Source: Bryopsis sp. KO-2023
Taxonomy: Eukaryota; Chlorophyta; Ulvophyceae; Bryopsidales; Bryopsidaceae
Assembly (NCBI GenBank): GCA_030272585.1
Contig: BSYQ01000003.1
Coordinates: 7,006,001-7,070,000, forward strand
Direction of reading: 5' to 3'
Length of the DNA: 64,000 nucleotides
Under the pieces are notes generated by a model. That model did not search any database. It had not been told where the DNA came from and was given only the letters and a program-made list of their open reading frames with translations. Shown in pieces: positions 6,409 through 59,480 of this stretch. Positions within the stretch are counted from its first letter, which is position 1. Each line of letters starts with the position of its first letter. A program made the position numbers and the translations under genes.

Positions 6409-7635
6409 AATTAACCGGTCCGTCTCATCGCTTCGACAGAGAGAGGGAAATCGAATGTAATGAGAACGGCCGATCTGAACTCTTTTTTTTTTTTTTCCTT
6501 GGCGATCGCCGAAAGCGCGTCGCACTGCGCGCTGCACGCTCGTTTTTTTCCAAGTCGCGGAAGTCGGACTGGCGCGACTTTGGAAAAAACGTGGTTTTTT
6601 TTTTTTTTTTTTTCGAAACCAAATCTGGGCCAGGGCGTCGCGCGCAGCGCCCTCGTTTTTTCCAAGTCGCGCCAGTCGCGGAGCGCCCTTTCCCAAGGCG
6701 CTCGTTCGTTGGTTTTTTTTTTTCTAACTCTCAGCGAACCAGATCTGGGCAAGGGCGCTGCGCGCAGCGCCCTCCTTTTCTCCAAGTCGCATCAGTCGGG
6801 CTGCGCTGCACGCAGCGCCCTTTCCCAAGGCGCAGCGCGCAGCACCCTCGCCCATCACACTTCCTAACTCCACAGGTCGCTGCACGCTGCGCAGCTCCCT
6901 CGCCCATCACCCCTGTTCAGTTGACAGGTCGCTGCGCAGCGCGCAGCTCCCTCGCCCCTCACACCTGTCGACTCGACAGGTTGTGCGCGCTGCGCAACTC
7001 CCTCGCTCATCCCACCTGTCAATTTGACAGGTCGCTGCGCAGCGCGCAGCTCCCTGGCCCCTCACTCTTTCAAAGCGGTCGCTGCGCTGCGCGCAGCTCC
7101 CTCCCCATCACTTTTTTTAGTTTGATAGGTCGCTGCGCTGCCCCCAGCGACCTCGCCCATCACCTTGCCTGACCCCTCACACTTTCTAAGAGGTCGCCGC
7201 GCTGCGCGCAGCACCCTCACCCATCACTTTTTCTAACTCCACAGGTCGGTTTGCTGCCCCCAGCGATTTCGCCCATCACCTTTTCAAAAGAGCGAGCTGC
7301 GCAGCGCGCAGCTCCCTCGCCCCTCAACCCTGTTGATTCGACAGGTCGCTGCGCAGCGCAGCTCCCTCTCCCTTTCAGTTTTTTTTTTTTTTCTTTCGTT
7401 CTCCGCCAGTTCGCTGCGCTTCGCGCAGCGCCCTGGAATCGCAAAGTCGCTGGAGTCGGACCTGCGCTCCGCGCACGTCCGCCATGCGGGCAGAGTCGCC
7501 CGACATGGCGCTTCGAAAATCTGACATGCGAGCGCGGAGCGTGACCGGCTACGCAGGGACATTTCGCCTGTGGGCTAGTACCCTGCGGGGACAAACTGAT
7601 GATCCTAGGAAAATCTCATTAACATTCGATTTCCC
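6409..7635 (-). mobile_element. Non-autonomous Helentron-like unit 1
   Basis: A 1227-bp unit that opens with AATTAACCGGTCCGTCTC and closes with CATTCGATTTCCC. Both ends match the ends of the autonomous unit at 9174-18399. The strand given is that of the Rep-Helicase gene in the autonomous unit, so the transposon 3' end is at 6409. The subterminal motif GGGAAATCGAATGTAATGAG (6445-6464) is the inverted partner of the opposite end (7615-7635). The interior is a GC-rich palindromic repeat array with T-runs. No protein gene. It abuts unit 2 directly. Confidence 0.75.
6499..7440. repeat. GC-rich palindromic tandem array in unit 1
   Basis: Copies of about 51-60 bp built from GTCGCTGCGCAGCGCGCAG, CTCCCTCGCCC and a short palindrome such as ACCTGTCGACTCGACAGGT. 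The palindrome at 6963-6981 and the next copy ACCTGTCAATTTGACAGGT both have perfect 9-bp arms although the inner arm bases differ. Similar arrays occur in units 2 and 3. Confidence 0.8.
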
Positions 7636-7691
7636 AATTAACCGGTCCGTCTCATCGCTTCGACAGAGAGAGGGAAATCGAATGTAATGAG
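7615..7691. other. Junction of units 1 and 2, large inverted repeat
   Basis: The last 21 bases of unit 1 (7615-7635) and bases 7672-7691 of unit 2 are inverted repeats with one extra base, separated by 36 bases. Within the 36 bases, on the element strand, TCTGTC and GACGGA can pair as a 6-bp stem just before the CCGGTTAATT end. Confidence 0.7.
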
Positions 7692-9173
7692 AATGGCCGA
7701 TATCCGACACAAGAAGTTGTGACACGAACGAGCACGTGAAAATACCACGGGAAGGACCAAACTTACAACGGATTAGAGCGAAATAACCAGCCTTCGCAAC
7801 ATCTATGCATAATCTGAACCTCCACTCACATCACAATTATTATTTTTTTTATTTCCCATCCTTATGTCCGAACCAAACGTTATTCTTTCCTTATGTTGTG
7901 TGAGAATTTCTGGAACGTAGTGAGTTAAAAGACGCACATTCAACGAAGTACTCAGGGGTGTGTAAGAGGAGTGAAAAGAAGGGCAGAATATGATCAGGTA
8001 CAAGAAGTAATGCTGTAGTGCAGAGGGAAGGAAAGGCAATAAAATACGAAATAACGAAGGGGAAAAGAAACTTGGTTTTGTAAGTTTGTTTTTGTTTTAC
8101 CCAGTTTCCTTACATGTTGTTTTCTATTTTTTCTTTTTTTTTTTCCTTTTTTTTTCTCAATTCCTATATCCAAACCTAACGATATTCTTTCCTTATTTTT
8201 ATTTTAAAGTTTTTTTTTATTATTTTATTTTAAAGTTTTTCTCTGATTCCAAAACGAACCTGTGGGTCGCGATCACCGAAAGCGCGTCGCACTACGCGCA
8301 GCGCCCTTTCCCAAGGTGCTCTTTCGGTTTTTTTTTTTTTTTTTTCGAAGTCCAGAGCGAACCAGATCTGGGCGAGGGCGCCGCGCGCAGCGCCCTCGTT
8401 TTCTCCAAGTCGCATCAGTCGGCCTGCGCTGCGCGCAGCGCCCTTCCCCAAGGCGCAGCGCGCAGCTCCCTGGCACATCACACTTTTTAACTCGTCGATT
8501 TTTTTTTTTCGAACTTCCAATAAACCAGACCTGGGCGAGGGCGCCGCGCGCAGCGCGCAGCACCCTCGCCCATCACACTTTTTCATTCGACAGGTCGCTG
8601 CGCGCTGCGCAGCTCCCTCGCCCCTCACACCTGATCAATTGACAGGTCGCTGCGCAGCGCGCAGCTCCCTCGCCCCTCACACCTGTCGACTTGACAGGTC
8701 GCTGCGCAGCGCGCAGCTCCCTCGCCCATCACTCTTTTCAAGTGGTCGCTGCGCTGGGCGCACCTCCCTCACCCATCACAATTTTTAATTTAATAGGTCG
8801 CTGCGCTGCCCCCAGCGACCTCGCCCATCACACTTTTAAAGGAGCGAGCGGTTTTGTTTCGGTTAACCTGTCATACTGAGTGTGGTTGCCCTTTCGGTTT
8901 CGACTTTGCTGCGACTTTGGCGCCTCCCCCCCTCGTTCTCCGCCAGTTCGCTGCGCTTCGCGCAGCACCCTGGAGTTTCGAAGTCGTTGGAGTCGGACCT
9001 GCGCTCCGCGCAGGTCCGCCATGCGCGCAGCGTCGCCCGACATGGCGCTTCGAAAATCTGACATGCGCGCTCGGAGCGTGACCGGCTACGCAGGGAAAAT
9101 CGCCCTCAGGGCTAGTACCCTGCGGGGACAAAACCGTCCTCTTAAGGAAAATCTCATTACATTACGATTTCCC
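7636..9173 (-). mobile_element. Non-autonomous Helentron-like unit 2
   Basis: A 1538-bp unit with the same ends as unit 1, placed head to tail with units 1 and 3 without spacer. Its first 250 bases after the end motif (7672-7920) are nearly identical to 9209-9400 in the autonomous unit, so it looks like a deletion derivative keeping the element's two ends. The interior again holds the GC-rich palindromic array (about 8270-8960). No protein gene is supported. Confidence 0.75.
8270..8960. repeat. GC-rich palindromic tandem array in unit 2
   Basis: Same GCGCAGCGCGCAGC and CTCCCTCGCCC building blocks as in unit 1, with GACAGGTCGCTGCG repeated between 8590 and 8710. It ends in a block at about 8940-9120 that is nearly identical to 7400-7590 and 18140-18350. 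Confidence 0.8.
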
Positions 9174-9228
9174 AATTAACCTGTCTGTCTCATGCTTTGA
9201 CAAAGAGAGGGAAATCGAATGTAATGAG
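9153..9228. other. Junction of units 2 and 3, large inverted repeat
   Basis: Same arrangement as the first junction: end of unit 2 (9153-9173) and 9209-9228 are inverted repeats around a 35-base spacer. The inner stem here is TTTGTC with GACAGA on the element strand, so the pairing is kept although two positions changed. Confidence 0.7.
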
Positions 9229-10479
9229 AATGGCCGATATCCGACACAAGAACTTGTGACACGAACGAGCACGTGAAAATAACACGGGAAGGACCAAACT
9301 TACAACGGATAACAGCGAAATAATAAGCCTTCGCAACATCTATGCATAATCTGAACTTCCACTGACATCACAATTATTATTATTTTTATTTCCCATCCAT
9401 ATATCCGAACCAAACGTTATTCTTTCCTTATGTTGTTTTTTTTTGTTTTTTTTTTGTTTTTCCTTTTTTTTTTTCAATTCCTAAATCCAAACCGAACGTT
9501 ATTCTTTCCTTATTTTTATTTTCAAGTTTTTAAAGTTTTTCTCCGATTCCTACTCCCAAACCGAACATTATTATGTTCTTTGTTTTCTCTAATCCCAATA
9601 TCTAAGCCCTAAAATTATTTTCTTTTATCCTCATGATTTTTTTATTTATGATCCCTAAATCCGGTGTATTTTTTTTATTTTATTTTTTTTTTTCCTCGAC
9701 CTCATAACAGTTCATATCTGTTTCCCTCCTAAAGATACCTTGTAAGATCCGCATAGAAACTTCAACTCTTTTTTTTACCGCGTAAAAATCCCTCAGTTCT
9801 CTCTCTCCCACTTGGATCAATTTTTCTGTCTTTTTTTTCAACAATGAAAGCAAAACTTCCACTCGAGCGAAGCTTAATCTCAATAGAATCGAGAGAGTGC
9901 ACATCACCATAGCAATCAGCAAAGGCCATAGAGAGGAGCCGTACCCAACGGATGCGGGGGAACATCCAATAATCCAAACGGTCGGGGCAAACCGTGACTC
10001 GTGTGGGGGGTGACACACGTAATGCGCGGGGGAACGCAACAAAAAACGGGTTGCTGATTGCTTATAGCTCAGAGAACTCCCAAGAAACTTAAAGAGAATA
10101 GCATCATCCGAGAGGGTAGAACCGACATGAAAGCAAACAAACTATGCGGAGGTATCGAAATCTACAAAAAGAAAACCCATCGGATCGAGGATACTGCAAA
10201 TAACGAAGAAAAAAGCAAAAAAACAAAACGTGTGATACATAGAATCGGCACAAAAAACGGCACAAGGGAGAATCTTCGTTAGGTGAATGTCTATTGGATC
10301 AATCCTACGTAGAAAACTCAGAAACAACATCGAAGACACACAAATTTGAAACAAAAAGTCATAAAACATGCTCACAATCAAAGAGGAACATATAAAAGAA
10401 AAATATGATCAAAAACAGAAAAAAAAAGAATACTCGAACCAAAGGAAAACAATATGATCCTCACAAATAATGAAAAAAA

Positions 10480-13400
10480 CTACTGAATATATCGAAGCAC
10501 TCCCTGAATACCCTCAGCGTCATACAAGGTCCTCGTCTGCTCCGCAAGACCCTCCAACCTCGCAAACTCCGCCAGCCGCGGACCAAGCTTCTTCAGCTTG
10601 GCAAGGGATCGGATCCGACCACGAGTGATGGGCGGATCGAAGGCGAGACCCTCATAGGTGAAGGATCGGCTGACGGCCACGAAAGTAATGCCTGCCGCAA
10701 ACTCCTTCGTCCCAAGGTCCACCAACACCCTGTCTAGTCCCTTGCCTTGGGACTTGTGGATGGAAATGGCCCAAGCCGGCATGAGAGGAAGCATCTTCCT
10801 CTCTCCAGAAGCCCTAGCCGCAGATGTCCGGACGTCGCGAGTGATAGGGACAATAGGAACGACCCCCTCGACCCCCTCCAAGAAGCTCGGCCCCCTGTAG
10901 TCGTCGAACCGAACCAAGATAGCATCCGGCAATGCAGGGGGAGTCGTGGACGTGTACACGATGTCATGAACGAAACCCATGGCGCCGTTGATGAGGCCGG
11001 CCTCTGTCCACGGGTTGGCTCGCAGCATCACCCTCGCTCCCTTGCATAAGCGCAGGGTAGATGGGAGATTCGTCGCCTCCTCCACGTCAAGACCCCTGGG
11101 CACTCGCAAATCCTCCGCCCTAATCATCGCCGTGGGTTGATCCAACGCCACGATCCGATCGTTGTTATGGCTCTCGGCTTGGGCGTTGGTGGCGCATAGG
11201 TACAAGGCATCTGAGAAAGCCTCTCTGTCGTCCACTGAAAGGGTACGGAGGTTGCGAGCCATCAGGGCGTCGATGTCGGAATCCGTGGGACATCCTCGTC
11301 GGAGCCTCATGAGAATGTCCCGGAAGGCCACCTGGTCTTGGCCCGCCTGTCGCATGACCGCAGTGAGACGAACCACCACCCTGAACTGACGGTACGCAGC
11401 AAAACCGCGCAAGCGATCCGCCTTGGGCCTCTGCCCGCGATCGAACATCTCGGCATCGCTGACGGGAGGGAGCTGTCCGAAATCACCCTCAATGACAATC
11501 GACAAGCCCCCAAACAACTGATCCGCGTGCTCCGGAAACGCCTGTCTACCCCGGGAGTCGATCGATGCAAACATCGATGCCCCGATCATCGATTTCTCAT
11601 CGATGATGAGATATCGCACGCCCCTCAATCTCTCCTGAAGAAGGCTCAAGGCGTTGCCCTTGAGGTCCTTGCACCTCGAGCCCACGGGCAACATCAATAG
11701 AGAATGGAGCGTGCAACCGCCGACGTTGAAGGCGGCACAACCTGTCGGAGCGGCAACCACGACCGAACCCTCCCCATGCTCTCTCTCGATCGCGGCAACG
11801 ACGGCATGAATCAGGGCACTCTTGCCCGTGCCGGCGGTCCCCTCGACGATCATGCGCAAGGGAGGAGGGTCGTCGGAACGAGCATGCTCCACGATGATGT
11901 CATACGCGAGGCGTTGACTGTCAACGAGCTGATCACGATCGAGGTGGTCACGATCTCTGGGCAAAGGGCCGTCCCGTCTCACGTCCTGGATGAAGGTCCG
12001 CATGGTCGGGACGTCGTACTGGGCCGCGCTCGCGTGCCAATCATGATCGGAGGCCTCCATCATGGGTCGGGCAAACTGTGGATGGGCAGCCAAAGCCCGC
12101 ATCCAATCATCCTGCTCGTCCTCGGGGAACTGTCGATAGTCGTCGTCGCTCCCCTCGGACCCATCCTCCTCCTCATCATCATCCCCCACCTCGGGAGCGA
12201 TGGAAACCTCTCTGAACAAATCGATCGCCCTGTGCATGGGCTGCTCCTCCAAGAACGCATCGAATGCCTCGACCCAAGTCATCTCACCGCCACCAAGCAA
12301 ATCCCGATCCACGTCTCTCCACTCCTTGTAGCGGATAAGGTATTGCTGGCAAAAGTCGGGAAAGCGCTCGTCATCCCGCGGCACTGGTCGGCAAGGCGGA
12401 AAGATCCTCATGATCTTGGGGTTCCTCTTGCGCTTGGGGGCCGCATTCCTCGGAAGGTCGTACCATCGAAAGAAGTCCTCCAAGCACTCATTGATGTCGT
12501 CCGGACGGTTTCTGTACTCGTCCATCCACGAACGTCGAAGGAAACCACCCTCTTCTGTGGTGATCTCTCTCGAATCGTCAAGCACTATGATACCGAAACT
12601 CCTCGAGGCCATCGTGAGCTTGGCCGAGGCAAGCTTGTGGAAGGCCTCCATCGTGCATACGTCATGCTCCTTGATGGTGCGGTTGAGCATCTTGACGACG
12701 GCCGAGATGGAGTTGGCCTCCTCAGCGGTGCGACACGTGTCGTCGAGGATCTCCGAAAACACCGCCATCAAGCTCCCGCTCTCCACCTCGGCCTTGCACG
12801 TGTAGCCGCACAGGTATCTCAAGAGGGCCGTCAACGACAAGATAGGTTGTATGTCGATGTTGGCCCTGAAGCCCTGCAGCATCGGTCGCGCCTGGTACTG
12901 GTTGAAGCGCTGCTGCTTTCCGGGCCTCCTCGCGAGCTCGAGCCTGTACTTTTGCCTTGGATCCTCCACGATCTCCGCATGCGGCCGCACCTCCCTCGGG
13001 AACCTGAACCTGCACCTACCCAAGTCCCGGTCCCTCTTGGACTTGAAGCAGCTGTTGGTGCACGCGTGGGGTCCCTGAACCCTCAACAGCTCCTCCAAGT
13101 CCCTTGCACGCTCCTCGTCGCTCGTGCCGATCGACGTGTACGTCCTCGTGGACGGGTGAGGCGTGGAGGGAGCGCTGCGGAAGTCCTCGTCCATGTCCAA
13201 GGTGATGCCGACTGTCTCTGTGAAGTACTCGATGACCTCTGCTCTCGTGTCGGCGCTCATCTCCTCGTGGGCGCTCCGCATCAAGTTGGGCGCATCCGGC
13301 AGCCACAAGAACCCGTGCATGTGGGGCGCCCCTCGCCACTGGTACTCGATCTTCGCCCAAAACTCGTCCGCGCCGAAGTAAGGCACCATCACCTTCTTGA

Positions 13401-15900
13401 GGAACGACTCGGATCGCTCCAAGAAGTAGGCATCGATGAGATCGGCGTTGTCCACCATCGCTCGCCTCTTCTTCGCCTTCCTCTGGGCCTCCGTGGCACA
13501 ATCTGAGTAGTCGAGTTGGAGGAGAGTCTCGATCTGTGGCCAAAACATCTCGGCGGAGCTCAAGGTGAAGAAGAGCGAGGGCATGTAACCCTGGCTACCC
13601 TCGACCGGGTGCGTGAGCTGCCGAAACATCTCCTCCAGCTCGCCACGTCTATCGGACCAAAATTGCTTCGTTCCTCGTATCCTCGAACCAAAGGCAAGAA
13701 TCTTCCTCATAAGGCTCGAATCACCCTCATCTACGAGGTCCTTCAAGTCCTTCACCGTCATCTTGTTGATGTCTTGGTTCCCCTTGAGGAACACCCGTGC
13801 CATGCCAAACGCGGCTTTGCGATCTGCGAGATTGACGACCAAGAACTTGAAGCGTGGATGCCGCGCGAAACGACGATCCGGCCATCGCATCAAATGAAGA
13901 GCGTACTCTCGCATGCCAATGACGTCGGGAAAGCCGGCCGTCGTGTAGTCCGCACCGCCACAAGGAAAAAGGGTGGGGAACGCCATCGAAAAGAGTCCTC
14001 GGGTCATGAACTCCTTGATCGGCTCCCTGTCTCGCACCGGAAAGGGAGCCACGTTGTTCCCCTCGGCGCGATCGATCGCCTCTGTCACAGATGCTCGGAT
14101 CTTGTCGACCTCTCGAACTCCACGGATTGTCGTGGGTGCATGAGAGTGCATCGACACATCGCCGTCGGCCTCGTCATCCGAATCGTGGGCACGGAACCCG
14201 CCCTCCTCCTCTGCCTCGGCGGCCTGCCGCTCGGTGAACTCTCGCAATCCCTCGGGGCTCCCGTGCTCCGGAAGACGAGCGATAACGTCCTCGTCAATCT
14301 CAATCCCAGCATACCAGGGGTTGTTCTTCTGCAACCAACGCAAGGCGCGGAGAACAACCCCTCGTCGCACGATGTGATCCTGATGGGTCCGATCAACCCC
14401 GTGTTGTCGGACCACCACCCAAGGAAGGTCTCTCGGGTCCACCGGCAGGCGCTGAAGGGCCTCGATCGTCTCCGAGTGGTCCGCCATAAAACCAATGAAG
14501 TGACCGCTCAACCGATGCATCCCGCTCTTGTGGATCCTCGCAATGTACATGCAAGGGTGAATACGGGCGATCAACATCTCCTCCATCTGGGTGAGGCCGG
14601 TGAGCTCGGGAGGAACGGGATCCGGCCAGAGCCCGTTCTCTTCGCTGTACGCTCGTCGATAGCGCGGATTCCTCTTGCACCTCGCACACGTGGCATCGCT
14701 GAAGTCGGCACCCGGCCCCGTCTCTCCACAACTCTGGCAAACGTTGCCGTGCCAGGTAACGGTCTGCTCCAAGTGACGCTCCCAATCGCGAATCAGCTCG
14801 TCGACGCTCGTGCGTTTGAGATTTTGCTTGTGGATCTTTTTTTTGGTCGCCCATTCCTCTCGTTGCTTTTTTCTCTTTCGCTCGTTTTCTTTCCTCGTGT
14901 TCTCGTCGGACGCTTTCTTTTCGCTCGTGTCCGTTCTCTTTCGTTCCTCGCTCGCGTGTGTTTCACGCAATGCTTTTTTCTTTTCTTCGGACAATTTCGC
15001 TTCCCTCTCGCGCTTCAGCAAAGCACGTTTCTCCAACCTTTTTTCCCTCTCTGTTTCGGGCTTGCTCGCAATGTTTTCTTTCTCAGCATCCCTCATCTCT
15101 TTTGCTTTCTTCGCATCGCTTCGTTGCTTCCTCTTTCTTTCCCTCGCAAGGCGTTTTTTTCTTTCTTCTTTCGTTTCCGTTTCGGTTCCGGTTTCATTTT
15201 TGAGTTGGGGAGTTCTGTTTCCCACGATCGGCACGTTAATATTCGCAAGTAATGAGGCGGGGGTGATCGCTTGGAGCTCGTTTCGCTCGTACACCCTGTC
15301 GTAGTGGTTACCTTTCGTGTTACATAATCTAACAAACACGTTATCCATGGCGCTGGTGGTAATCAAGTGAGTGGGGAACAAAGGATTAAATTTGAATACA
15401 GGGTAGTCACGTTGGTATAATTGTATTTCAAAAGGGGTTTGGAGGAGGGTCGCGGCCGCAAAAATAGTCCACGTGCTCGCCCACGTATCGTTGGACCGCA
15501 TGTTATTTATCTTTATTTTTATCTCATCGATGGTGCACCCCTCAAAAGCGGCAAAAGTCACGGGGTGCGTCGCCGCCAGGTCGCATACCAAGGTTCGTAG
15601 GGTCCCCGCACTCGTTTCGTCCCCGCTTATTTCTTTGGATATGGCGTTAAAAAAACACGCCCCGTTTGCTGAACTGTGATCGACAAAAAATTCTGCCCCT
15701 AGGGCCACGTTCATTTGCTCGTATAACGAAAAATTTTGTCTCCCGTACGGGGAACTCGTCACTGGAGTGATCACGAAAGGATCACGAGAGATCACTCGCC
15801 TGTTTGGGATACCCAACCCCACGCACACTTGATTCCTCCACATCCATCGAGCTTGCACGTCGGACCTTGTGAAGCTCCTCGTCTCACCCACTGACGTCAT
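10480..15900 (-). CDS. OTU-Rep-Helicase transposase of Helitron type
   Basis: A single uninterrupted frame of 1806 codons starting at the ATG at 15900. In order: an OTU-like cysteine protease domain (about 65-210) with NGACFFNAIS (Cys82) and GNHYDRV (His199), where the usual Asp before Gly is Asn; a Lys/Glu-rich charged stretch (240-365); a CxxC-x13-CxxC zinc site (388-408); a Helitron-like N-terminal region with MPSLFFTLSSAEMFWP; the Rep HUH motif GAPHMHGFLWL (about 860); the tyrosine motif RYLCGYTCK (about 1030); and a Pif1-like SF1 helicase with Walker A GTAGTGKS (about 1350), LIIDEKSMIG, GDFGQLPPV and AISIHKSQGKGL. Rep nicks and joins strands and the helicase unwinds during rolling-circle transposition. 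All main catalytic motifs are intact, so it may be active. No endonuclease domain is seen. Confidence 0.95.
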   Translation of the reverse strand: MTSVGETRSFTRSDVQARWMWRNQVCVGLGIPNRRVISRDPFVITPVTSSPYGRQNFSLYEQMNVALGAEFFVDHSSANGACFFNAISKEISGDETSAGTLRTLVCDLAATHPVTFAAFEGCTIDEIKIKINNMRSNDTWASTWTIFAAATLLQTPFEIQLYQRDYPVFKFNPLFPTHLITTSAMDNVFVRLCNTKGNHYDRVYERNELQAITPASLLANINVPIVGNRTPQLKNETGTETETKEERKKRLARERKRKQRSDAKKAKEMRDAEKENIASKPETEREKRLEKRALLKREREAKLSEEKKKALRETHASEERKRTDTSEKKASDENTRKENERKRKKQREEWATKKKIHKQNLKRTSVDELIRDWERHLEQTVTWHGNVCQSCGETGPGADFSDATCARCKRNPRYRRAYSEENGLWPDPVPPELTGLTQMEEMLIARIHPCMYIARIHKSGMHRLSGHFIGFMADHSETIEALQRLPVDPRDLPWVVVRQHGVDRTHQDHIVRRGVVLRALRWLQKNNPWYAGIEIDEDVIARLPEHGSPEGLREFTERQAAEAEEEGGFRAHDSDDEADGDVSMHSHAPTTIRGVREVDKIRASVTEAIDRAEGNNVAPFPVRDREPIKEFMTRGLFSMAFPTLFPCGGADYTTAGFPDVIGMREYALHLMRWPDRRFARHPRFKFLVVNLADRKAAFGMARVFLKGNQDINKMTVKDLKDLVDEGDSSLMRKILAFGSRIRGTKQFWSDRRGELEEMFRQLTHPVEGSQGYMPSLFFTLSSAEMFWPQIETLLQLDYSDCATEAQRKAKKRRAMVDNADLIDAYFLERSESFLKKVMVPYFGADEFWAKIEYQWRGAPHMHGFLWLPDAPNLMRSAHEEMSADTRAEVIEYFTETVGITLDMDEDFRSAPSTPHPSTRTYTSIGTSDEERARDLEELLRVQGPHACTNSCFKSKRDRDLGRCRFRFPREVRPHAEIVEDPRQKYRLELARRPGKQQRFNQYQARPMLQGFRANIDIQPILSLTALLRYLCGYTCKAEVESGSLMAVFSEILDDTCRTAEEANSISAVVKMLNRTIKEHDVCTMEAFHKLASAKLTMASRSFGIIVLDDSREITTEEGGFLRRSWMDEYRNRPDDINECLEDFFRWYDLPRNAAPKRKRNPKIMRIFPPCRPVPRDDERFPDFCQQYLIRYKEWRDVDRDLLGGGEMTWVEAFDAFLEEQPMHRAIDLFREVSIAPEVGDDDEEEDGSEGSDDDYRQFPEDEQDDWMRALAAHPQFARPMMEASDHDWHASAAQYDVPTMRTFIQDVRRDGPLPRDRDHLDRDQLVDSQRLAYDIIVEHARSDDPPPLRMIVEGTAGTGKSALIHAVVAAIEREHGEGSVVVAAPTGCAAFNVGGCTLHSLLMLPVGSRCKDLKGNALSLLQERLRGVRYLIIDEKSMIGASMFASIDSRGRQAFPEHADQLFGGLSIVIEGDFGQLPPVSDAEMFDRGQRPKADRLRGFAAYRQFRVVVRLTAVMRQAGQDQVAFRDILMRLRRGCPTDSDIDALMARNLRTLSVDDREAFSDALYLCATNAQAESHNNDRIVALDQPTAMIRAEDLRVPRGLDVEEATNLPSTLRLCKGARVMLRANPWTEAGLINGAMGFVHDIVYTSTTPPALPDAILVRFDDYRGPSFLEGVEGVVPIVPITRDVRTSAARASGERKMLPLMPAWAISIHKSQGKGLDRVLVDLGTKEFAAGITFVAVSRSFTYEGLAFDPPITRGRIRSLAKLKKLGPRLAEFARLEGLAEQTRTLYDAEGIQGVLRYIQ

Positions 15901-16441
15901 CTATACAAATATTCGAAAAAACAAACGAATTCATTGAAATTCCGTGAATAGAGAGAAGATTCAAGGGGTTTCTTGGGCTGATTTTTCATGCGAAACACCC
16001 ACGATAGTCAATGCCTCAAAAAATCATTTATTTGCACTCCATTAGGCTTATACAATAGCTTTCTTTTGTTTTATACAATATTTGGGTGGCCGAATCCCTC
16101 CCGACGTCCAGAAGTCGTCAAAGGACGATCGACCTAAAGTTTTTCCTTTAAAACGTGACAAAATAGTATGTAGTGGCTTCCCCTCGACTCCACGTTTCCA
16201 ACGCGCTTTGTTTCGTCGGAAACGACACGGTATAAGAGAAGTTATGAGGAAAAACATAAAGAATCTCAACAGGAGGGAGATCTTTTCGGCGACGAAGTTG
16301 GTTTCTCCCAAAAAAGAACGCGAACAAGGTGGAACCAAGCCAGAAAAAGGAAAACAAAGAAGAATAGGGAGAGGTTTCCCTAAAACCTTTTCTGTCGACC
16401 CCTACATGTTTGAATTTCCAGGAAATAAGCCTTCAGGAGGT

Positions 16442-16458
16442 GTGGGAGTCGAACCCAC
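16442..16458 (-). other. tRNA T-arm / Pol III B-box-like sequence
   Basis: On the minus strand GTGGGTTCGACTCCCAC has a perfect 5-bp stem around the tRNA T-loop TTCGACT and matches the B-box GGTTCGANTCC. I could not fold a full tRNA around it: no matching acceptor strand or D-arm was found. Confidence 0.35.
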
Positions 16459-16897
16459 TTCACCCTCCTTCTTCTCTCACCTTGTTCGCGTTCTCAACAC
16501 GCCTGCGTCGTCGCGTACGTCGTCGCTCGTCGCCTTTTTTTCCTTCCTCGACTTTCCTTGCTCGATCTTCGTGGATCGTCGATGGTTACGCGAGAATCGG
16601 AAGTCGTCAATGACAGGGACAGGATGAGAGTCACATCACTCTTCCAGGTACGTCATCCCTGAGGACTTCGATTTCGCTTCACGGTTTTGGTGGGGTGGAA
16701 TGGTGGGGGGGATCCGCGAGAACACTTTCTCGAGATATCGACATAGACTCGCTGCGTGTTGACGATACGGCCGACGGCGGCAGAGACGACCGGAAACACG
16801 AGAAACCAGAGCTTACTCGTGTGAGGAGGGTAATCGCCAGGAGATGAAAGAAACGCAGGTGAGTGAACGTGAAATAATGCTCACAGCGGGTTCCAGG

Positions 16898-16914
16898 TTG
16901 GGTTCGACTCCCAA
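16898..16914 (+). other. Second tRNA T-arm / B-box-like sequence, inverted
   Basis: TTGGGTTCGACTCCCAA has a perfect 5-bp stem and the same T-loop as the copy at 16442-16458, in the opposite orientation. No complete tRNA cloverleaf is visible here. Confidence 0.35.
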
Positions 16915-17099
16915 GTGAGACCACAAACGTAAAGAGGGAAGGAACTCTTGCAGTAAACGTAGTGCTAGCTTCCTCTGAACCATTTGCAGGCGTGAGGGGC
17001 AGCCCATCCACAACTCTGGCTTCTGTCAAACTTCCTGGTATCCATCATTGACAGCTTTTTACGTTGAATTCAGTCGAAGTAAAAACACCGTCAGCAAAC

Positions 17100-17750
17100 A
17101 GATCGGTTGGGAAGGGCCTGTTTTTTTTTTGTTTTTTTTTTTGGAAAGGATAGGTCATTTGCTGTGGTTCCTGGGAAGTGGAAAGGGGGAAGGGAAGAGT
17201 TGTTTTTTTTCGATTGAATGGAATGGAAGGGTATTTTTTTTGCTAAGCAAAGGGAAAGAGAAGGGCCAGGTGTTCTTTTCAATGGGAAAGGGAAGGGCCT
17301 GGTTTTTTGTTGCTTGTTTCAAGGGGAAGGGAATCGCCCAGTTTTTTTTCTATGTTTTCAAGTAAGGGAAGGGAGCAGAGTAGAGCAAGGGAAGGGAGCA
17401 AAGGCTTCCTTTTCCCTGTTTCAAGGGGAGGGATAGGCCAGTTTTTATTTTTTTGAAGGGGAAAGGGAGGGGGGGGGGGCTCTTTTTTATAAGGGAGAAG
17501 GGAAGGACCAGTTTTATTTTATATTTGTTGCAGTGTTCTTTCAAGGGAAGGGAAAAGGAGGGGAGAGGAGAAGAGAGGCTTGTTTTCCTTGTTTGAAGAA
17601 AAGGAAAAAGGAAGTGCCAGTTTTTTTCAAGGGGGATGGGAAGGGAGAGAGTGGTTTTTTTTGGGTTGCTTCAAGGGGAGGGGAACGGCCCAGTTGTTTT
17701 TTTCTATTTCTGTAAGGGAAGGGAAGCAAGGCTCAGTTGTTTTTTCGATC
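17100..17750. repeat. Degenerate GGGAAGGG / poly-T repeat
   Basis: About ten loose copies of a 45-70 base unit in which AAGGGGAAGGGA and GGCCAG or GCCCAG are followed by a run of T. It lies inside the autonomous transposon unit between its coding region and the GC-rich array. No coding potential. Confidence 0.6.
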
Positions 17751-17754
17751 ACGA

Positions 17755-18350
17755 TCACCGAAAGCGCGTCGCACTGCGCGCACCGCCTTTTCCCAAGGCG
17801 CTCTTTTTCGTTGTTTTTTCCTTTTTTTCCAACTCCGAGCGAACCAGACGTGGGCGAAGGCGCAGCGCGCAGCTCCCTCGCCCAATCACCCCTGTCACTT
17901 TGACAGGTCGCTGCGCAGCGCGCAGCTCCCTGGCCCCTCACACTTTCAAAGCGATCGCTGCGCTGCGCGCGCGCAGCTCCCTCCCCATCACTTTTTTTAA
18001 TTTGATAGGTCGCTGCGCTGCCCCCAGCGACCTCGCCCATCACCTTTTAAAAAGAGCGAGCCGCGCAGCGCGCAGCTCCCTCGCCCTTTCCTTTTCGATG
18101 GTGCCGCGCCGCGCTTCGCGCAGCGCCTCCCCCCCTCGTTCTCCGCCAGTTCGCTGCGCTTCGCGCAGCGCCCTGGTAACCACCCAAGTCGCGCGAGTCG
18201 GACCTGCGCTCCGCGCAGTTTCGCTGCAGCATCGCGCCGGTCCGCCATGCGAGCAGCGTCGACCGACATGGCGCCTCGAAAATCAGACATGCGCGCGCGG
18301 AGCGTGACCGGCTACGCAGGGAAAATCGCCCTCAGGGCTAGTACCCCGCG
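17755..18350. repeat. GC-rich palindromic array at the 5' end of the autonomous unit
   Basis: Contains the same motifs (GTCGCTGCGCAGCGCGCAG at about 17907, CAGCGACCTCGCCCATCACC at about 18023) and the same closing block as units 1 and 2. It lies upstream of the Rep-Helicase gene on the element strand, so it could serve as promoter or as a replication signal. That role is inference. Confidence 0.75.
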
Positions 18351-18399
18351 GGGACAAAACTGATGATCCTAGGAAAATCTCATTAACATTCGATTTCCC

Positions 18400-21764: not shown

Positions 21765-21940
21765 GGTCAAATCAGTCAGTCTGATTATGGGTCATTATGG
21801 GTGGGGTAGAAAAAACAGTTCCAAAAAAAAAAAAAAAAATCAAAAAAAAAAAAAAAAGATGGTTGGGTGTAGAATGTAACAGTCAAATCAGTCAGTCAAA
21901 GTCATCATGGGTAGGGTGAAAAAAAAACTTCAAAAAAAAA
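21765..21940. repeat. Two-copy repeat with long A-runs
   Basis: GTCAAATCAGTCAGT and TCAT(T/C)ATGGGT(G/A)GGGT occur twice (from about 21766 and 21883), each followed by long A-runs. Confidence 0.6.
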
Positions 21941-22832
21941 ATGTCCCCTTAATGGTATGAAGTATAAAGTGTCATCAGATGACATTTAAGTTCATGGGTC
22001 AAGTCAGTGGTCAGTTTGGGGAAGGAAAAATTTTCAGGAAGCGGGAACGTCCTGGATATGACACTTAAACTGTCCAATCGGTCAGATCGAGAATTGATGG
22101 TATCGAAGTCAGTACACGAGATGCCTTAAAAATAGGGAGAAAGGGGAGAGAGGAAGCTTCATGTCATCTTTTCAAACATTAGCATCACTTGGGTTCTTTT
22201 TCTTTCAACCTCTTATCAATCCATTCTCCTTGACCGGGCAGAAAAAAAAGAAAAAAAAAAAAAAAAAGAAAAAAAATATACAAAAAAGAAAAAAAAGTCC
22301 CCGTAATGGTATGAAGTATAAAGTGTCATCAGATGACATGTAGAGGTCATGGGTCAAGTCAGTGGTCAGTTTGGGGAAGGAAAAATTTTCAGGAAGCGGG
22401 AATGTCCTGGATATGACACTTAAACTGTCCAATCGGTCAGATCGAGAATTGATGGTGTCGAAGTCAGTACACGAGATGCCTTAAAAATAGGGAGAAATGG
22501 GAGAGAGGAAGCTTCATGTCATCTTTTCAAACATTAGCATCACTTGGGTTCTTTTTCTTTCAACCTCTTATCAATCCATTCTCCTTGACCGGGTAGAAAA
22601 AAAAGAAAAAAAAGAAAAAAAATATACAAAAAAGAAAAAAAAGTCCCCGTAATGGTATGAAGTATAAAGTGTCATCAGATGACATGGAAAGGTCATGGGT
22701 CAAGTCAGTGGTCAGTTTGGGGAAAGAAAATTTTTCAGGAAGCGGGAATGTCCTGGATATGACACTTAAACTGTCCAATCGGTCAGATCGAGAATTGATG
22801 GTGTCGAAGTCAGTACACGAGATGCCTTCAAG
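21941..22832. repeat. About 350-bp tandem repeat, 2.5 copies
   Basis: Copies start at about 21941, 22296 and 22641 with TAATGGTATGAAGTATAAAG and continue almost unchanged through GTCCTGGATATGACACTTAA and CTTATCAATCCATTCTCC to an A-rich stretch. The third copy breaks off near 22832. Differences are mainly A-run length. Confidence 0.9.
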
Positions 22833-25019: not shown

Positions 25020-26240
25020 CCTGGCTGTTGTGAGCTGGCGGTGAATTTGGGAGAATGTGACAAAAAAGAGGGAGAATCGGGATGGATCTGCCCGTATCAC
25101 CGCTGCTGGATAAGATGTTTGGATCCATCAGTGTGGTTTACAGTTTTAAATGAAGGATCGGGCACATGCAACCCGAGTTGGTTGTGAATTTTGGGAGAAT
25201 GTGACAAAAAAGAGGGAGAATCGGGATGGATCTGCCCGTATCACCGCTGCTGGATAAGATGTTTGGATCCATCAGTGTGGTTTACAGTTTTAAATGAAGG
25301 ATCGCGCACATGCAACCCGAGCTGGTTGTGAATTTTGGGAGAATGTGACAAAAAAGAGGGAGAATCGGGATGGATCTGCCCGTATCACCGCTGCTGGATA
25401 AGATGTTTGGATCCATCAGTGTGGTTTACAGTCTTAAATGAAGGATCGGGCACATGCAACCCGAGTTGGTTGTGAATTTTGGGAGAATGTGACAAAAAAG
25501 AGGGAGATTCGGGATGGATCTGCCCGTATCACCGCTGCTGGATAAGATGTTTGGATCCATCAGTGTGGTTTACAGTCTTAAATGAAGGATCGGGCACATG
25601 CAACCCGAGTTGGTTGTGAATTTTGGGAGAATGTGACAAAAAAGAGGGAGATTCGGGATGGATCTGCCCGTATCACCGCTGCTGGATAAGATGTTTGGAT
25701 CCATCAGTGTGGTTAACAGTTTTAAATGAAGGATCGCGCACATGCAACCCGAGTTGGTTGTGAATTTTGGGAGAATGTGACAAAAAAGAGGGAGAATCGG
25801 GATGCGTCTGCCCGTATCACCGCTGCTGGATAAGATGTTTGGATCCATCAGTGTGGTTTACAGTCTTAAATGAAAGATCGGGCACATGCAACCCGAGTTG
25901 GTTGTGAATTTTGGGAGAATGTGACAAAAAAGAGGGAGATTCGGGATGGATCTGCCCGTATCACCGCTGCTGGATAAGATGTTTGGATCCATCAGTGTGG
26001 TTTACAGTCTTAAATGAAGGATCGGGCACATGCAACCCGAGTTGGTTGTGAATTTTGGGAGAATGTGACAAAAAAGAGGGAGATTCGGGATGGATCTGCC
26101 CGTATCACCGCTGCTGGATAAGATGTTTGGATCCATCAGGGTGCGTTTACAGTCTTAAATGAAGGATCGGGCACATGCAACCCGAGTTGGTTGTGAATTT
26201 TGGGAGAATGTGACAAAAAAGAGGGAGATTCGGGATGGGT
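25020..26240. repeat. 144-bp satellite array, about 8.5 copies
   Basis: The motif AATGTGACAAAAAAGAGGGA recurs at 25054, 25198, 25342, 25486, 25630, 25774, 25918, 26062 and 26206, exactly 144 bp apart. Copies differ at a few bases only. Each unit also holds GGATCCATCAGTGTGGTTTA. Although 144 is a multiple of three, most units carry a stop in every frame, so this is not a repeat protein. Confidence 0.95.
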
Positions 26241-26600
26241 CTCTTGCAAAGGGGGATAAGAGTAAAGTGTTGCCAGGCTGGCAAAAGGGAGAAGGCCAAT
26301 TGGGCCACAATTGGCCACAAAAAATTATGTTCGTATTAGCATTGATGTCGGGAGATGAACAAGAATGGTTAGCTTAAATAGGGGCAGCTGGTTTAGGCTG
26401 TTTGTTCAGAAAAAAAAAGGCTCGATCGAAGAAAAGGAAGAGTCAAAGAGCCCATTTTGCTGGGCAATGATTGTCAAAAATTCTGTGTCACTGCTGAATG
26501 AAGCACAGTAAAAAACATCAGCAATCAATGTTTTCAGAGCAGTGCTGCTACTGCTCCTGGGAGATTATCAGAGGGAATGTGTGGACTTGTAAGCTATCCC
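26241..26600. repeat. Single-copy tail of the satellite element
   Basis: This stretch, from CTTGCAAAGGGGGATAAGAG to GGACTTGTAAGCTATCC, is repeated in inverted orientation at 58676-59040, again directly next to 144-bp satellite units. Satellite plus tail therefore form one mobile or duplicated element. Confidence 0.85.
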
Positions 26601-55283: not shown

Positions 55284-58200
55284 TTAAACACCGACCTCCA
55301 CTGCCTTCGGCTGTGGTTTGAACCCCATGTCCACCACCACAGGTAAACACCGTTCGCACAACTCTTTGTGGTCGTCATGGCTTCCCACTGCAGAACTGTA
55401 GTTCCAGCATCTTCCACATTTTCCACCATCGGCTCGGGCCACCCCCACAGCCACCTCACCCAGACCTTCCACCTGAGCAACCGAGTTGAACTCACACCCC
55501 ATCGCCACATCTTTGGCCACTTTTTCTGCCTCAGACGTCAAAAACAAGTATCGCATATCGTCCACCCCGTTCTCACTACCGCTGTAGGAAACAGCCCCTC
55601 CCAAGCTGGCATCATTCTCGACATACACCAACACTTTGGCCTCCATGGATGCCCCGACGAATTTGTTCTCCCTGGCTACCTCCAGAGCTTTAGTGACCAC
55701 TTCCCTCAGCCCCAGTGCCGCTTCCCACGATTTCGAATCCTCAGTACTCCAATCGCTCAAGAAGCGAGGGTTGGGCTGAAACCAGCCGGCCTTGAACACG
55801 GATGCCTCCTGATCTGAAACATGCAAATTGCTCCAGGCATCCTCAGCCAAATGGGGCAAGATCGGGGCAGATGCTGTCAGCATCCCGAACAGAAGGTCGT
55901 TCAGCACAGTCTGGCAGGACCTTCTGGAGAACGATGTCTTGCCCTGAATGTACAGCCTATCCTTCGCAGCATCCAGATAAAAATTCGACAAATCCGCCAC
56001 CACGAATCGATTCATGACTGACATGAATCTCGAGAACTGGTAAGTGTTGAAGGCCTCCTCCACCTCACGGAGCGCCGTGGAGAACCTGGTCAGAATGTAT
56101 CGATCGATGGATGGAAGGTCTTCGTAAGCAACAGCCTCCGTTTTTGGATCGAAATCGGACAGATTCCCAAGTAGAAATCGAATCGTTCCTCGAAGCTTGC
56201 GATAGGTGTCAGCAGTTTGCTTGAGAATTCCAGACCCGATCGCAACATCAGATGAATAATCCACGCTGGACACCCACAGCCTCAATACATCCGCTCCGTA
56301 GGCAGGCTCCTGTTTCTGGTTCTTGCCCCCTTCAATAACCTTCCTGGGATCGATCACATTTCCCAGACTTTTCGACATTTTCCTGCCCCTCTCGTCCAAG
56401 ACGAAGCCATGAGTAATCACTTGATCATAGGGAGGCGTTCCGTTGGTAGCCACACTGGTCAACAGTGAACTTTGAAACCACCCTCTGTGCTGGTCAGACC
56501 CCTCCAGGTAGAGATTTGCGGGATATCTAACATTTTCATTGTTTTCCAGCACCGCAGCCCAGCTCGTTCCTGAATCGAACCAAACATCCATCGTGTCCTC
56601 CCCCTTTCTCAAATCCCCAGCCATATCTCGGTACTTTTCTGGCAGTAAATCGGCGATGTCCTTTTCCCACCAAGCATCGGTGCCTTCCTCAGCTACGATG
56701 CTTTGCACATAGGAAATCGTTTCCTCCGTCATGAGGGGCTCCCCAGTGACTTTGTTATAGAAAGCCGGAATCGGTACTCCCCACCTCCTTTGCCGTGAAA
56801 TACACCAATCAGATCGGCCCCCAGTCATGGCACTGATTCGATTCAACCCTGAAGAAGGCACCCATTTCACATTGGAGATCGCTGCCAACGCATCCTCCCT
56901 GAATCCATCCACCGAGGCAAACCACTGGTCGGTCGCTCTGAAAATGATTGGCTTTTTCGTTCGCCAATCGTAAGGATACTTGTGCTGATAAGGCTCCTCC
57001 TTCAAGAGAGCATCCACACCTTTCAATTCTTCCAACACAGCTTTGTTACCCTCGTTCAAAACTTTCAGCCCCTCGAATTTGCCAGCTTCTGCGGTGAACC
57101 TCCCATAATCATCCACAGGGGAAAACACCTCCAACCCGTACTGAATTCCAGCCTTGTAGTCCTCTTGACCATGGCCCGGAGCGGTGTGAACCAAGCCAGT
57201 ACCCGTTTCTGTCGTGATATAATCGCCCCCCAAAATCACAGGCTGGATTTTTTCCGGGTATAGAGGGTGTCTGTAGCTGACCCCCTCCAAATCGGCACCC
57301 TTGAAAGTTGCAAGAGGCTTCAACCCCACCCCGAATTTCTCTTCCAAATTCTTGATCAGGTCCACAGCTACAATGATTCTCTCCACTGTGATGCCTTCCA
57401 CATCCCCAGTTTGAACCTCAACCAGCGCATAGTCCAGATCAGGGTTCACCGCTACAGCCCTGTTCGCAGGGACCGTCCAAGGAGTGGTGGTCCAAATTGC
57501 CAGCGAAGCCGGCATGAAATCCTTTAATACCTCCACGTCTTTTTCGATTTGAAAAGCAACGAAACAAGAACGAGAAGTGTGGCCCTCCGGGTATTCCAAT
57601 TCAGCCTCCGCAAGGGCTGTTTGGGAAGATGGACTCCAATGCACCGGCTTTCTTCCACGATAAATATGGCCATTAGCAACCATCTTGGCGAACACCCCCA
57701 GCTGAGCAGCTTCGTATTTTGGCTGCAGAGTCAAGTAAGGGTTCTCCCAATCGGCCCAGACCCCATACCTTTTGAACTGCTCCTTTTGGGCAGCAACAGT
57801 TTTCTCGGCGAATTTCTTGGCTCGTTTTCTCAAATCCAGGGGGGTCAATAACTTTTGCTCTTCTCTGGGGATGGATTGCAGGACTTTCAATTCGATGGGG
57901 AGCCCGTGGGTGTCCCAGCCAGGGATGAAAGCAACTTTCTTTCCTTTCAGCAGCTGATATCGATTGATGAAGTCCTTCAGGATTTTGTTCATGGCATGGC
58001 CGATATGCAAATCTCCATTGGCATAAGGAGGGCCATCGTGCAGGGTGAACATTTCCCCAGGATTTTCCTTCCCGACGCTTTCCAGCACTTTGTTTTCCTC
58101 CCAGAATTTCTGAAGCTCGGGTTCCCTGGTCAAGGAATTAGCCCTCAGACTGAACGCAGTTTTGGGCAACGCCACGGTTTCCTGGTAGACGCTTTGCTCC

Positions 58201-58409
58201 TTCTTTTTTCTCGCTGCGACCGTCACGCATCGACGCTGGGAGTAATTCGAGCCTTCGTGCACGGGGGCACTTCGCAAGAAGCCTGTCTGGGGGCTATCCA
58301 TTCTGTGGGTAGCGCGCTGAAACAGAGAACCAGTCGATGGCACCCGTCGCGGGGCAACTGGGCAACAGACGGCGCCCGCCGCGAGCTTGGGAACTTTGAG
58401 AGGCCACAT
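55284..58409 (-). CDS. Isoleucyl-tRNA synthetase, bacterial/organellar type
   Basis: One uninterrupted frame of 1041 codons. After about 75 Arg/Ser/Ala-rich residues that look like a transit peptide come NSLTREPELQKFWEENKV, the class I motif YANGDLHIGHAMNK (about 136), GWDTHGLPIELK, the editing domain with TTTPWTVPANRAV, the second class I motif GRKMSKSLGNVIDP (about 676), and the C-terminal zinc knuckle CGRCW with CERC (about 995-1020). The zinc knuckle and order of domains are those of bacterial IleRS, so it probably charges tRNA-Ile in plastid or mitochondrion. The lack of introns is odd beside intron-rich neighbours. The ATG at 58409 is the first of the frame. Confidence 0.96.
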   Translation of the reverse strand: MWPLKVPKLAAGAVCCPVAPRRVPSTGSLFQRATHRMDSPQTGFLRSAPVHEGSNYSQRRCVTVAARKKKEQSVYQETVALPKTAFSLRANSLTREPELQKFWEENKVLESVGKENPGEMFTLHDGPPYANGDLHIGHAMNKILKDFINRYQLLKGKKVAFIPGWDTHGLPIELKVLQSIPREEQKLLTPLDLRKRAKKFAEKTVAAQKEQFKRYGVWADWENPYLTLQPKYEAAQLGVFAKMVANGHIYRGRKPVHWSPSSQTALAEAELEYPEGHTSRSCFVAFQIEKDVEVLKDFMPASLAIWTTTPWTVPANRAVAVNPDLDYALVEVQTGDVEGITVERIIVAVDLIKNLEEKFGVGLKPLATFKGADLEGVSYRHPLYPEKIQPVILGGDYITTETGTGLVHTAPGHGQEDYKAGIQYGLEVFSPVDDYGRFTAEAGKFEGLKVLNEGNKAVLEELKGVDALLKEEPYQHKYPYDWRTKKPIIFRATDQWFASVDGFREDALAAISNVKWVPSSGLNRISAMTGGRSDWCISRQRRWGVPIPAFYNKVTGEPLMTEETISYVQSIVAEEGTDAWWEKDIADLLPEKYRDMAGDLRKGEDTMDVWFDSGTSWAAVLENNENVRYPANLYLEGSDQHRGWFQSSLLTSVATNGTPPYDQVITHGFVLDERGRKMSKSLGNVIDPRKVIEGGKNQKQEPAYGADVLRLWVSSVDYSSDVAIGSGILKQTADTYRKLRGTIRFLLGNLSDFDPKTEAVAYEDLPSIDRYILTRFSTALREVEEAFNTYQFSRFMSVMNRFVVADLSNFYLDAAKDRLYIQGKTSFSRRSCQTVLNDLLFGMLTASAPILPHLAEDAWSNLHVSDQEASVFKAGWFQPNPRFLSDWSTEDSKSWEAALGLREVVTKALEVARENKFVGASMEAKVLVYVENDASLGGAVSYSGSENGVDDMRYLFLTSEAEKVAKDVAMGCEFNSVAQVEGLGEVAVGVARADGGKCGRCWNYSSAVGSHDDHKELCERCLPVVVDMGFKPQPKAVEVGV

Positions 58410-58675: not shown

Positions 58676-59480
58676 AGGATAGCTTACAAGTCCACACATT
58701 CCCTCTGATAATCTCCCAGGAGCAGTAGCAGCACTGCTCTGAAAACATTGATTGCTGATGTTTTTTACTGTGCTTCATTCAGCAGTGACACAGAATTTTT
58801 GACAATCATTGCCCAGCAAAATGGGCTCTTTGACTCTTCCTTTGCATCGATCGAGCCTTTTTTTTTGTGAACAAACAGCCTAAACCAGCTGCCCCTATTT
58901 AAACTAACCATTGTTGTTCATCTCCCGACATCAATGCTAATACGAACATATTTTTTTTGTGGCCAATTGTGCCCCAATTGGCCTTCTCCCTTTTGCCAGC
59001 CTGGCAACGCTTTACTCTTATCCCCCTTTGCAAGAGACCCATCCCGAATCTCTCTCTTTTTTGTCACATTTTCCCAAAATTCACAACCAGCTCGGGTTGC
59101 CTGTATGGGATCCTTCATTTAAAACTGTAAACCACACTGATGGATCCAAAAATCTTATCCAGCGGTGATACGGGTAGACCCATCCCGATTCTCCCTCTCT
59201 CTTTTGTCACATTTTTCCAAAATTCACAACCAGCTCGGGTTGCCTGTATGTGATCCTCCATCAAAAACTGTAAACAACGCTGATGGATCCAAAAATCTTA
59301 TCCAGCAGCGGTGATACGGGCAGACCCATCCCAATTCCTCCTCTCTCTTTTGTCACATTTTCCCAAAATTCACAACCAGCTCGGGTTGCATGTGCGAGAT
59401 CCTTCATTTAAAACTGTAAACCACACTGATAGATCCAAATATCTTATCCAGCAGCAGTGATGTGGGCGGACCTATCCCGA
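58676..59480. repeat. Inverted copy of the satellite element
   Basis: 58676-59040 is the reverse complement of 26241-26600 with few changes. It is followed by three satellite units starting near 59038, 59179 and 59324 (141-147 bp apart), inverted relative to those at 25020-26240. It sits upstream of the IleRS start, whose promoter must lie in about 58410-58675. Confidence 0.9.

Follow-up and report, generated by a model that had tools for sequence, protein, structure and literature searches.

One-way arrays of unlike units in a Helitron2-type transposon family of the green alga Bryopsis sp. KO-2023

An array of three units and its autonomous member

The genome assembly of Bryopsis sp. KO-2023 (GCA_030272585.1; 91,088,769 bases in 28 contigs, designated here by C and a number) contains on contig C3 (BSYQ01000003.1) three abutting units of a rolling-circle transposon, the anatomy, distribution and possible mode of growth of which are the subject of this analysis. 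The stretch of 64,000 nucleotides in which they lie, C3:7006001-7070000, is called the window, and positions given without a contig refer to it. The element strand is the minus strand throughout the array, with unit 1 at 6409..7635 (1225 bp from TTAACC to CCC), unit 2 at 7636..9173 and unit 3 at 9174..18399 (9224 bp from TTAACC to CCC). The joints of this minus-strand array, at 7627..7643 between units 1 and 2 and at 9165..9181 between units 2 and 3, each read CGATTTCCC-AA-TTAACC on the plus strand; because the AA of the joint is assignable to either neighbour, each end of a unit is uncertain by two bases, and on the element strand the 5' ends start (TT)GGGAAATCG and the 3' ends close GGTTAA(TT). 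A first-pass annotation of the window had already described three units that share their ends and abut, and the genome bears this out: the joint pattern is found 120 times and the exact left-end pattern 131 times, compared with none for the reversed-pattern controls, which excludes chance. The same annotation had the first unit without a left arm and the last without a right arm. Both end types are, however, present on each of the three units, and the arrangement is better described as an array that ends at genomic flanks; on the plus strand the left flank ends GAAA and the right one starts AAAAAGG, and both are unlike the units.

Units 1 and 2 are 98% identical over their first 66 bp and 89% identical over the last 240 bp or so, the corresponding values for units 2 and 3 being 94% over the first 264 bp and 80% over the last 540 bp or so. 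All three contain GC-rich tandem repeats of 52 bp, to which no strand is assigned (6830..7372 in unit 1, 8548-8841 in unit 2 and 17860-18086 in unit 3). In the classification of units that is described below, unit 1 is a type of its own among the units retrieved, unit 2 belongs to type T7, with four copies retrieved, all on C3 and 99.7-99.9% identical, and unit 3 is of type T34.

The proposed division into one autonomous and two non-autonomous units stands, in that a large Rep-helicase open reading frame (ORF) is found only in unit 3 and none appears for units 1 and 2 in the list of ORFs of the window. This frame of 1806 codons (10480..15900, minus strand, start at 15900) is uninterrupted, and its product has Pfam matches above the cut-offs to OTU (residues 77-164), DUF6570 (416-539), Helitron_like_N (665-863) and PIF1 helicase (1323-1535), so that the intact Rep-Helicase of the earlier description is upheld. 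The product also contains PHMHG near residue 860, which we take to be an HUH-like motif, and RYLCGYTCK near residue 1029, the two tyrosines of which presumably represent the Rep tyrosine motif. Its relatives of solved structure are mostly PIF1-type helicases, together with the helicase part of Helraiser (chain 7lcc, E 7.6e-08). Two further ORFs of unit 3 have no Pfam match of any kind, and neither in these nor in the 1806-residue product did Pfam detect an endonuclease domain.

At least 27 protein matches to this product exist in the genome (26 of 268 candidates scored); among the 27 listed, 19 are full length or begin at residue 8, none of these with inner stops, whereas two begin near residue 400, one of them with a stop, and six are fragments. 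On C4 and C11 there are seven autonomous ORFs without a single difference across 5,418 nucleotides (nt); compared with these, the ORF of the window has 64 substituted sites (35 synonymous, 29 nonsynonymous) and a ratio of nonsynonymous to synonymous rates (dN/dS) of 0.24. The suggestion that the family may still move is thus compatible with these data, which indicate that it has probably been active recently. Since the family looks recently active, the choice of target, the formation of circles and the growth of arrays by a Helitron2 element should be testable in it.

The termini have the structure expected of such an element. In unit 3, a 5'-terminal asymmetric inverted repeat (18378..18399, minus strand; element strand GGGAAATCGAATGTTAATGAGA) corresponds to a 3'-subterminal one (9209..9229, minus strand) that begins 33 nt from TTAACC. 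The best alignment pairs the 5' terminus with a stretch that starts 33-35 nt from the 3' end; this holds for 105 of 107 units, and the mean score is 14.8 (lowest 5) compared with 6.4 (highest 10) for shuffled ends; furthermore, a G/A change is matched between both repeats in 97 of the 105 units read (Fisher p 1.6e-17, a value that is only indicative given that the units are related). A predicted 5'-terminal hairpin of unit 3 (18372..18399, minus strand; element strand GGGAAATC...GATTTTCC) recurs, as such or in a shifted form, in the eight most frequent of the 35 different ends, where 6 to 22 of 200 shuffles fold equally well, and the stem also appears in folds of 66 nt, at an energy no better than that of shuffles (85 and 106 of 200). 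For the 3'-subterminal hairpin, placed in unit 1 at 6419..6440 (minus strand; element strand TCTGTC...GACGGA), the basis is pair counts, single-sequence folds favouring other pairings at this place: T-A occurs in 56 units, T-G in 23, C-G in 20 and C-A in none, with 8 of the 107 unread, and the predicted stem shows compensatory changes. Its energy is not distinctive (21 to 152 of 200 shuffles are equal for the 8 commonest of 13 ends, two of which fold otherwise), and, taken by themselves, energies of folding at the unit ends give weak or non-significant results.

By its domains and termini, the family fits a Helitron2-type rolling-circle transposon with an HUH Rep and a PIF1-like helicase: the RepHel protein, the asymmetric inverted repeats (5' terminal and 3' subterminal), the 5'-terminal hairpin and the 3' hairpin are all present. 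Assignment to canonical Helitrons (Helitron1), with their 5'-TC and CTRR-3' ends, was rejected, the element-strand ends being (TT)GGG...GGTTAA. Of the earlier designation as Helentron-like, the placement in the rolling-circle Helitron2/Helentron group is retained; a strict Helentron was rejected and Helitron2 is the better fit because no endonuclease domain fused to RepHel was found by Pfam. According to excerpts of the published description (PMC3627910), Helitron2 elements such as Helitron-1_CRe of Chlamydomonas share with the present family the asymmetric inverted repeats, the hairpins at both ends, a RepHel without endonuclease and a T-rich target, and the copies of Helitron-1N1_CRe likewise lack a target duplication, whereas the present family has OTU inside the RepHel ORF, keeps most of its copies in arrays and has its 3' repeat 33-35 nt from the end rather than at about 20 to 30. 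With Helentrons and HINE/DINE-1, as presented in part of another source (PMC4067079), it has in common subterminal repeats, a 3' palindrome, variable runs of T at the boundaries, internal tandem repeats in some copies and the presence of OTU proteases in the group; the OTU of Helentrons is, however, described there as an additional ORF, and the endonuclease domain is not found here. FoHeli of Fusarium oxysporum likewise belongs to the Helitron2 group (PMC5148889, in part). Helraiser shares the HUH Rep and the helicase but is a canonical Helitron (PMC5876387, in part), and the sequence match to it is limited to the helicase part.

Arrays, joints and insertion sites across the genome

Most of the family is arranged in long arrays in which units of many types follow one another end to end and in one direction. 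Places are known for 100 left ends and 100 joints, in contig order and reaching into C11, and among these left ends 85 are, by eye, directly joined to the end of another unit on the left and 15 are not. The letters retrieved from C11 hold 22 left ends beyond those listed (two mismatches allowed), and therefore much of the unlisted remainder lies on C11. There are at least nine arrays across eight contigs, at C1 7.89 Mb, C2 7.76 Mb, C3 6.39-6.46 Mb and 7.01 Mb (the window), C4 0.27-0.33 Mb, C6 6.28 Mb, C7 2.68-2.73 Mb, C8 1.57 Mb and C11 3.33-3.48 Mb. Within each array the listed joints point one way, with the exception of C11, where a left part on the minus strand and a right part on the plus strand meet near 3,389 kb; at this place (about C11:3388967-3389096), the minus array ends directly against a plus unit, and of the latter seemingly only about the last 125 bp remain.

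The joint itself is nearly uniform: among the 100 listed, 90 have two A's, seven have three, three have four and none has one, with nothing but A's between the units, and the 90 joints within retrieved letters give 85, three and two, respectively. End-to-end pairs with a shortened joint, which fall outside the joint pattern, occur at C3:2212234 and C11:3482519. Near-identical repeats are hard to assemble, so that one might suspect an artefact; however, at least nine arrays of differing unit order have the same joint and the window array is bounded on both sides by flanks unlike the units, and we find this explanation hardly credible.

The isolated copies with the same ends, and the empty sites, for which the first-pass annotation had proposed a search of the genome, both exist. 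C2, C4, C5, C10 and C13 carry solitary copies, and C3 has a locus of two units. The last letter of the outer left flank is A in all 15 cases read, which on the element strand places a T behind the 3' end; the outer right flanks are AAAAA in nine of the 15 read and AAAT, AATA or AATT in the others; the flank tetranucleotide (Helitron2 expectation: TTTT / T/C) is readable only within the two-base ambiguity of the ends. When TTAACC...CC(C)AA was removed and the joined flanks of eight loci were searched (40 of 203 candidates scored), places matching over the junction numbered six for the two-unit locus on C3 (100% in four, 99% in two), 34 for the C5 locus (100% in 33, 99% in one) and one, at 97%, for the solitary locus on C4; for the remaining five loci there was no empty site among the matches listed from this scoring. 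As judged by these comparisons of sequence, at three of the eight loci searched, insertion at unlinked sites is exact, without duplication or loss of the target. The flanks and these empty sites led us to reject cut-and-paste transposition with target duplication and agree with the predicted insertion at sites that are T-rich on the element strand. Homology running past the unit ends, against which the first-pass annotation had cautioned, is not what is seen near C3:6454787, where an array is partly nested inside another copy. At this place a sub-array of five units adjoins the left part of the other copy, which is without about its first 73 bp, and these are absent from the far side as well.

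Could the arrays be centromeres or some other chromosome structure that is kept by the host? They are large and number one or two per contig where present, and tandem Helitrons have been reported in plant centromeres (Xiong 2016, as cited in the parts of PMC5876387 and PMC5148889 available). However, none of the joints listed lies on C5, C9 or C10, the contigs after C11 have, among the matches listed, one copy, the solitary one on C13, and another repeat, matched by the flank of the C5 copy, clusters at other places on C1, C3, C4, C6 and C7. Given the contigs without listed joints and the different repeat clustered elsewhere, we set this reading aside as very improbable. The repeat that holds the solitary C5 insertion forms one cluster per contig, away from the Helitron arrays (C4 5.15-5.19, C3 2.76-2.84, C1 5.75-5.77, C6 3.37-3.39, C7 3.19-3.20 and C5 2.15-2.18 Mb), and is perhaps a centromeric repeat.

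The genome also contains a second RepHel family, at C4:3225436, C4:2025907, C7:442759, C13:2377969 and C15:214355, with open frames of 1386 codons at four of these loci and 578 at one. Five loci that far apart provide an internal contrast to the arrayed family.

How the arrays could have grown

Any account of array growth has to start from the mixture of units. With cut-offs of 90% identity and 95% length, the 107 complete units cut from the retrieved letters fall into 46 types, 26 of them singletons, and 16 of the 20 multi-copy types are spread over two or more contigs. Members of a type are for the most part 95-100% identical, falling to 92-94% where there are subgroups, as in T4 and T5, which hold two each at 92-94%; T15 is a single pair at 92%, and a finer cut would give more types. 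The type labels belong to this grouping, another one (102 units, 44 types) being numbered differently. Untyped partial units, units without a read end or joint and letters outside those retrieved are excluded from the counts, and partial units at the edges of the retrieved stretches were typed from what remained, in some cases about 200 bp, which makes these assignments weaker. In the 91 typed pairs of neighbours, 81 of them distinct, the types differ in 86.

Tandem Helitrons are usually blamed on a missed terminator: bypass of the 3' terminator during rolling-circle replication would yield head-to-tail concatemers, as the available part of one account holds for bat and silkworm (PMC4067079). 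The first-pass annotation had explained the window array in the same way. The spacing of autonomous ORFs on C11 at one unit length (9,365 and 9,361 bp) is what such read-through would leave, and the recurrence of some unlike pairs (T3-T0 is seen three times) is what composite read-through would yield. A circle copied past its end should, however, give runs of one type, and the five same-type pairs are not above shuffles (mean 2.6; 604 of 5000 shuffles reach five), three of the five including a partial unit typed from its end. With adjacent units being copies of each other in so few pairs, a rolling-circle concatemer was rejected as the description of the arrays; read-through as the main route appears improbable, and successive units that mostly differ in type call for a different route.

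The reading that we prefer, and that we regard as about evenly poised between right and wrong, is targeted end-to-end insertion of separate units at the terminal cleavage site of an existing copy, followed by exchange through the shared arms. The Rep-helicase of the autonomous unit would release a single strand that runs from the 5' end (TTGGGAAATCG; the right end on the plus strand) to the 3' end (GGTTAA); the ends would be joined, probably into a circle in which GGTTAA-TTGGG forms the joint, before reinsertion of the unit. The preferred target would be GGTTAA^T, the site of cleavage at the element's own 3' end, or this sequence inside an inter-unit joint (GGTTAATTGGG), such that units of any type would land end to end and in one direction, each joint being remade with exactly two T's (A's on the plus strand), and later homologous exchange through the shared arms would duplicate blocks and swap arms. 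From the uniform joint, the single direction and the mixture of types, we infer that separate units insert at an existing 3' cleavage site. Among other rolling-circle elements, excerpts on FoHeli report the detection of joined ends by PCR, two copies separated by 2 bp and several 5' termini ascribed to self-insertion (PMC5148889), and circles with joined ends are intermediates of Helraiser in the part of its description available (PMC5876387). In the arrays themselves, T5-T16-T3 compared with T5-T3, and T2-T8-T19 compared with T2-T19, are as expected if one unit had entered a joint cleanly and left the arms of the neighbours unchanged.

Several observations weigh against this reading. The solitary copies at other sites imply that targeting is a preference at most, and the circle is not seen in the sequence data. 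Order A-X-B with A-B elsewhere is no commoner than chance (six cases, 4.8 expected; 1033 of 3000 shuffles), and several of the 22 comparisons of this kind lack clean arms and hence give no proof of single-unit insertion. Ten ordered neighbour pairs recur, compared with a shuffle mean of 3.3 (two of 5000 shuffles reach ten), and therefore blocks of units have also been copied together. In the arm tests, which omit units above 3 kb and in which same-type pairs are not independent, 35 of 142 same-type pairs agree less well, by more than 3%, in the right arm than in the body, and 15 of 142 do so in the left arm by more than 5%, implying that ends have been swapped between types. The arms of neighbours are also slightly more alike than those of random pairs, on the right (0.800 and 0.777; 35 of 2000) as well as on the left (88 of 2000), as exchange predicts.

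These facts raise the alternative that homologous exchange is the dominant process, with a few founding insertions seeded by Rep and then multiplied through the shared arms by unequal crossing-over, gene conversion or reintegration of circles. Two arm swaps can be followed in detail. On C11, the T12 units at 3340355 and 3342811 differ in the left arm, and that of the former is the left arm of the T21 unit that stands two units further on, without a difference in the 170 bp compared; on C4, the unit ending at 321591, otherwise unlike the T18 unit at 306948, shares with it an identical right arm of about 147 bp, and after each of them come the same joint, of three A's, and the pair T9-T8. Moreover, discordance of the right arm affects one pair or more in 11 of the 19 short multi-copy types, through truncated ends in T2 and two subgroups in T4 (by eye), and the recurrence of ordered pairs above chance is likewise in favour of exchange. 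That arms have been exchanged is thus well supported, and the exchange would have been homologous. However, of the 106 same-type pairs whose members lie on separate contigs, 31 are discordant in the right arm, whereas in 75 this arm is not more than 3% worse than the body, so that units mostly travel with their own ends, and exchange leaves unexplained how unlike units first came to be joined by the same two-base joint. Taken as the dominant process, exchange seems to us less likely than not, but it is the chief rival of the preferred reading and likelier than read-through.

The reading of targeted insertion can be carried one step further, which we do tentatively and with rather less than even confidence. 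If the transposase prefers its own terminal cleavage site, unlike units would gather in one-way, cassette-like arrays to which a unit could be added at any joint, the joint being remade each time, and such an array would be, in form, the eukaryotic rolling-circle counterpart of the cassette arrays of bacteria. Tandem Helitrons as such are known: those of bat, silkworm and plant centromeres are also head-to-tail in the available parts of the sources (PMC4067079, PMC5876387), and for bat and maize there is mention of dissimilar Helitrons lying next to one another (PMC4067079, in part). In contrast to these, the arrays described here hold many unlike types each, in one direction and with a nearly uniform joint, and whereas the tandem copies of FoHeli are single cases in the excerpts seen (PMC5148889), here arrays hold most of the family. 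In the literature searched, mostly without subscription papers, no family is described as residing mainly in mixed one-way arrays, and one that lives mostly in this form is an unusual variant.

Other features of the window and the assembly

Elsewhere in the window, an uninterrupted ORF of 1041 residues on the minus strand (55284-58409) encodes a predicted class I tRNA synthetase with a zinc finger of the IleRS/FPG type. A tandem repeat of 355 bp, with 2.6 copies at 95%, occupies 21935-22828, and a dispersed repeat is present in two opposite copies, at 25032-26599 and 58677-59490 (817 bp, 92%), which contain a satellite of about 144 bp in about eight and three copies. In the assembly at large, C3 and C4 start with CCCTAAA repeats (TTTAGGG telomeres), whereas such repeats are absent from the end of C3 and from either end of C11, and the end of the 400 bases read from C28 (91,672 bases) resembles by eye a green-type plastid rbcL.

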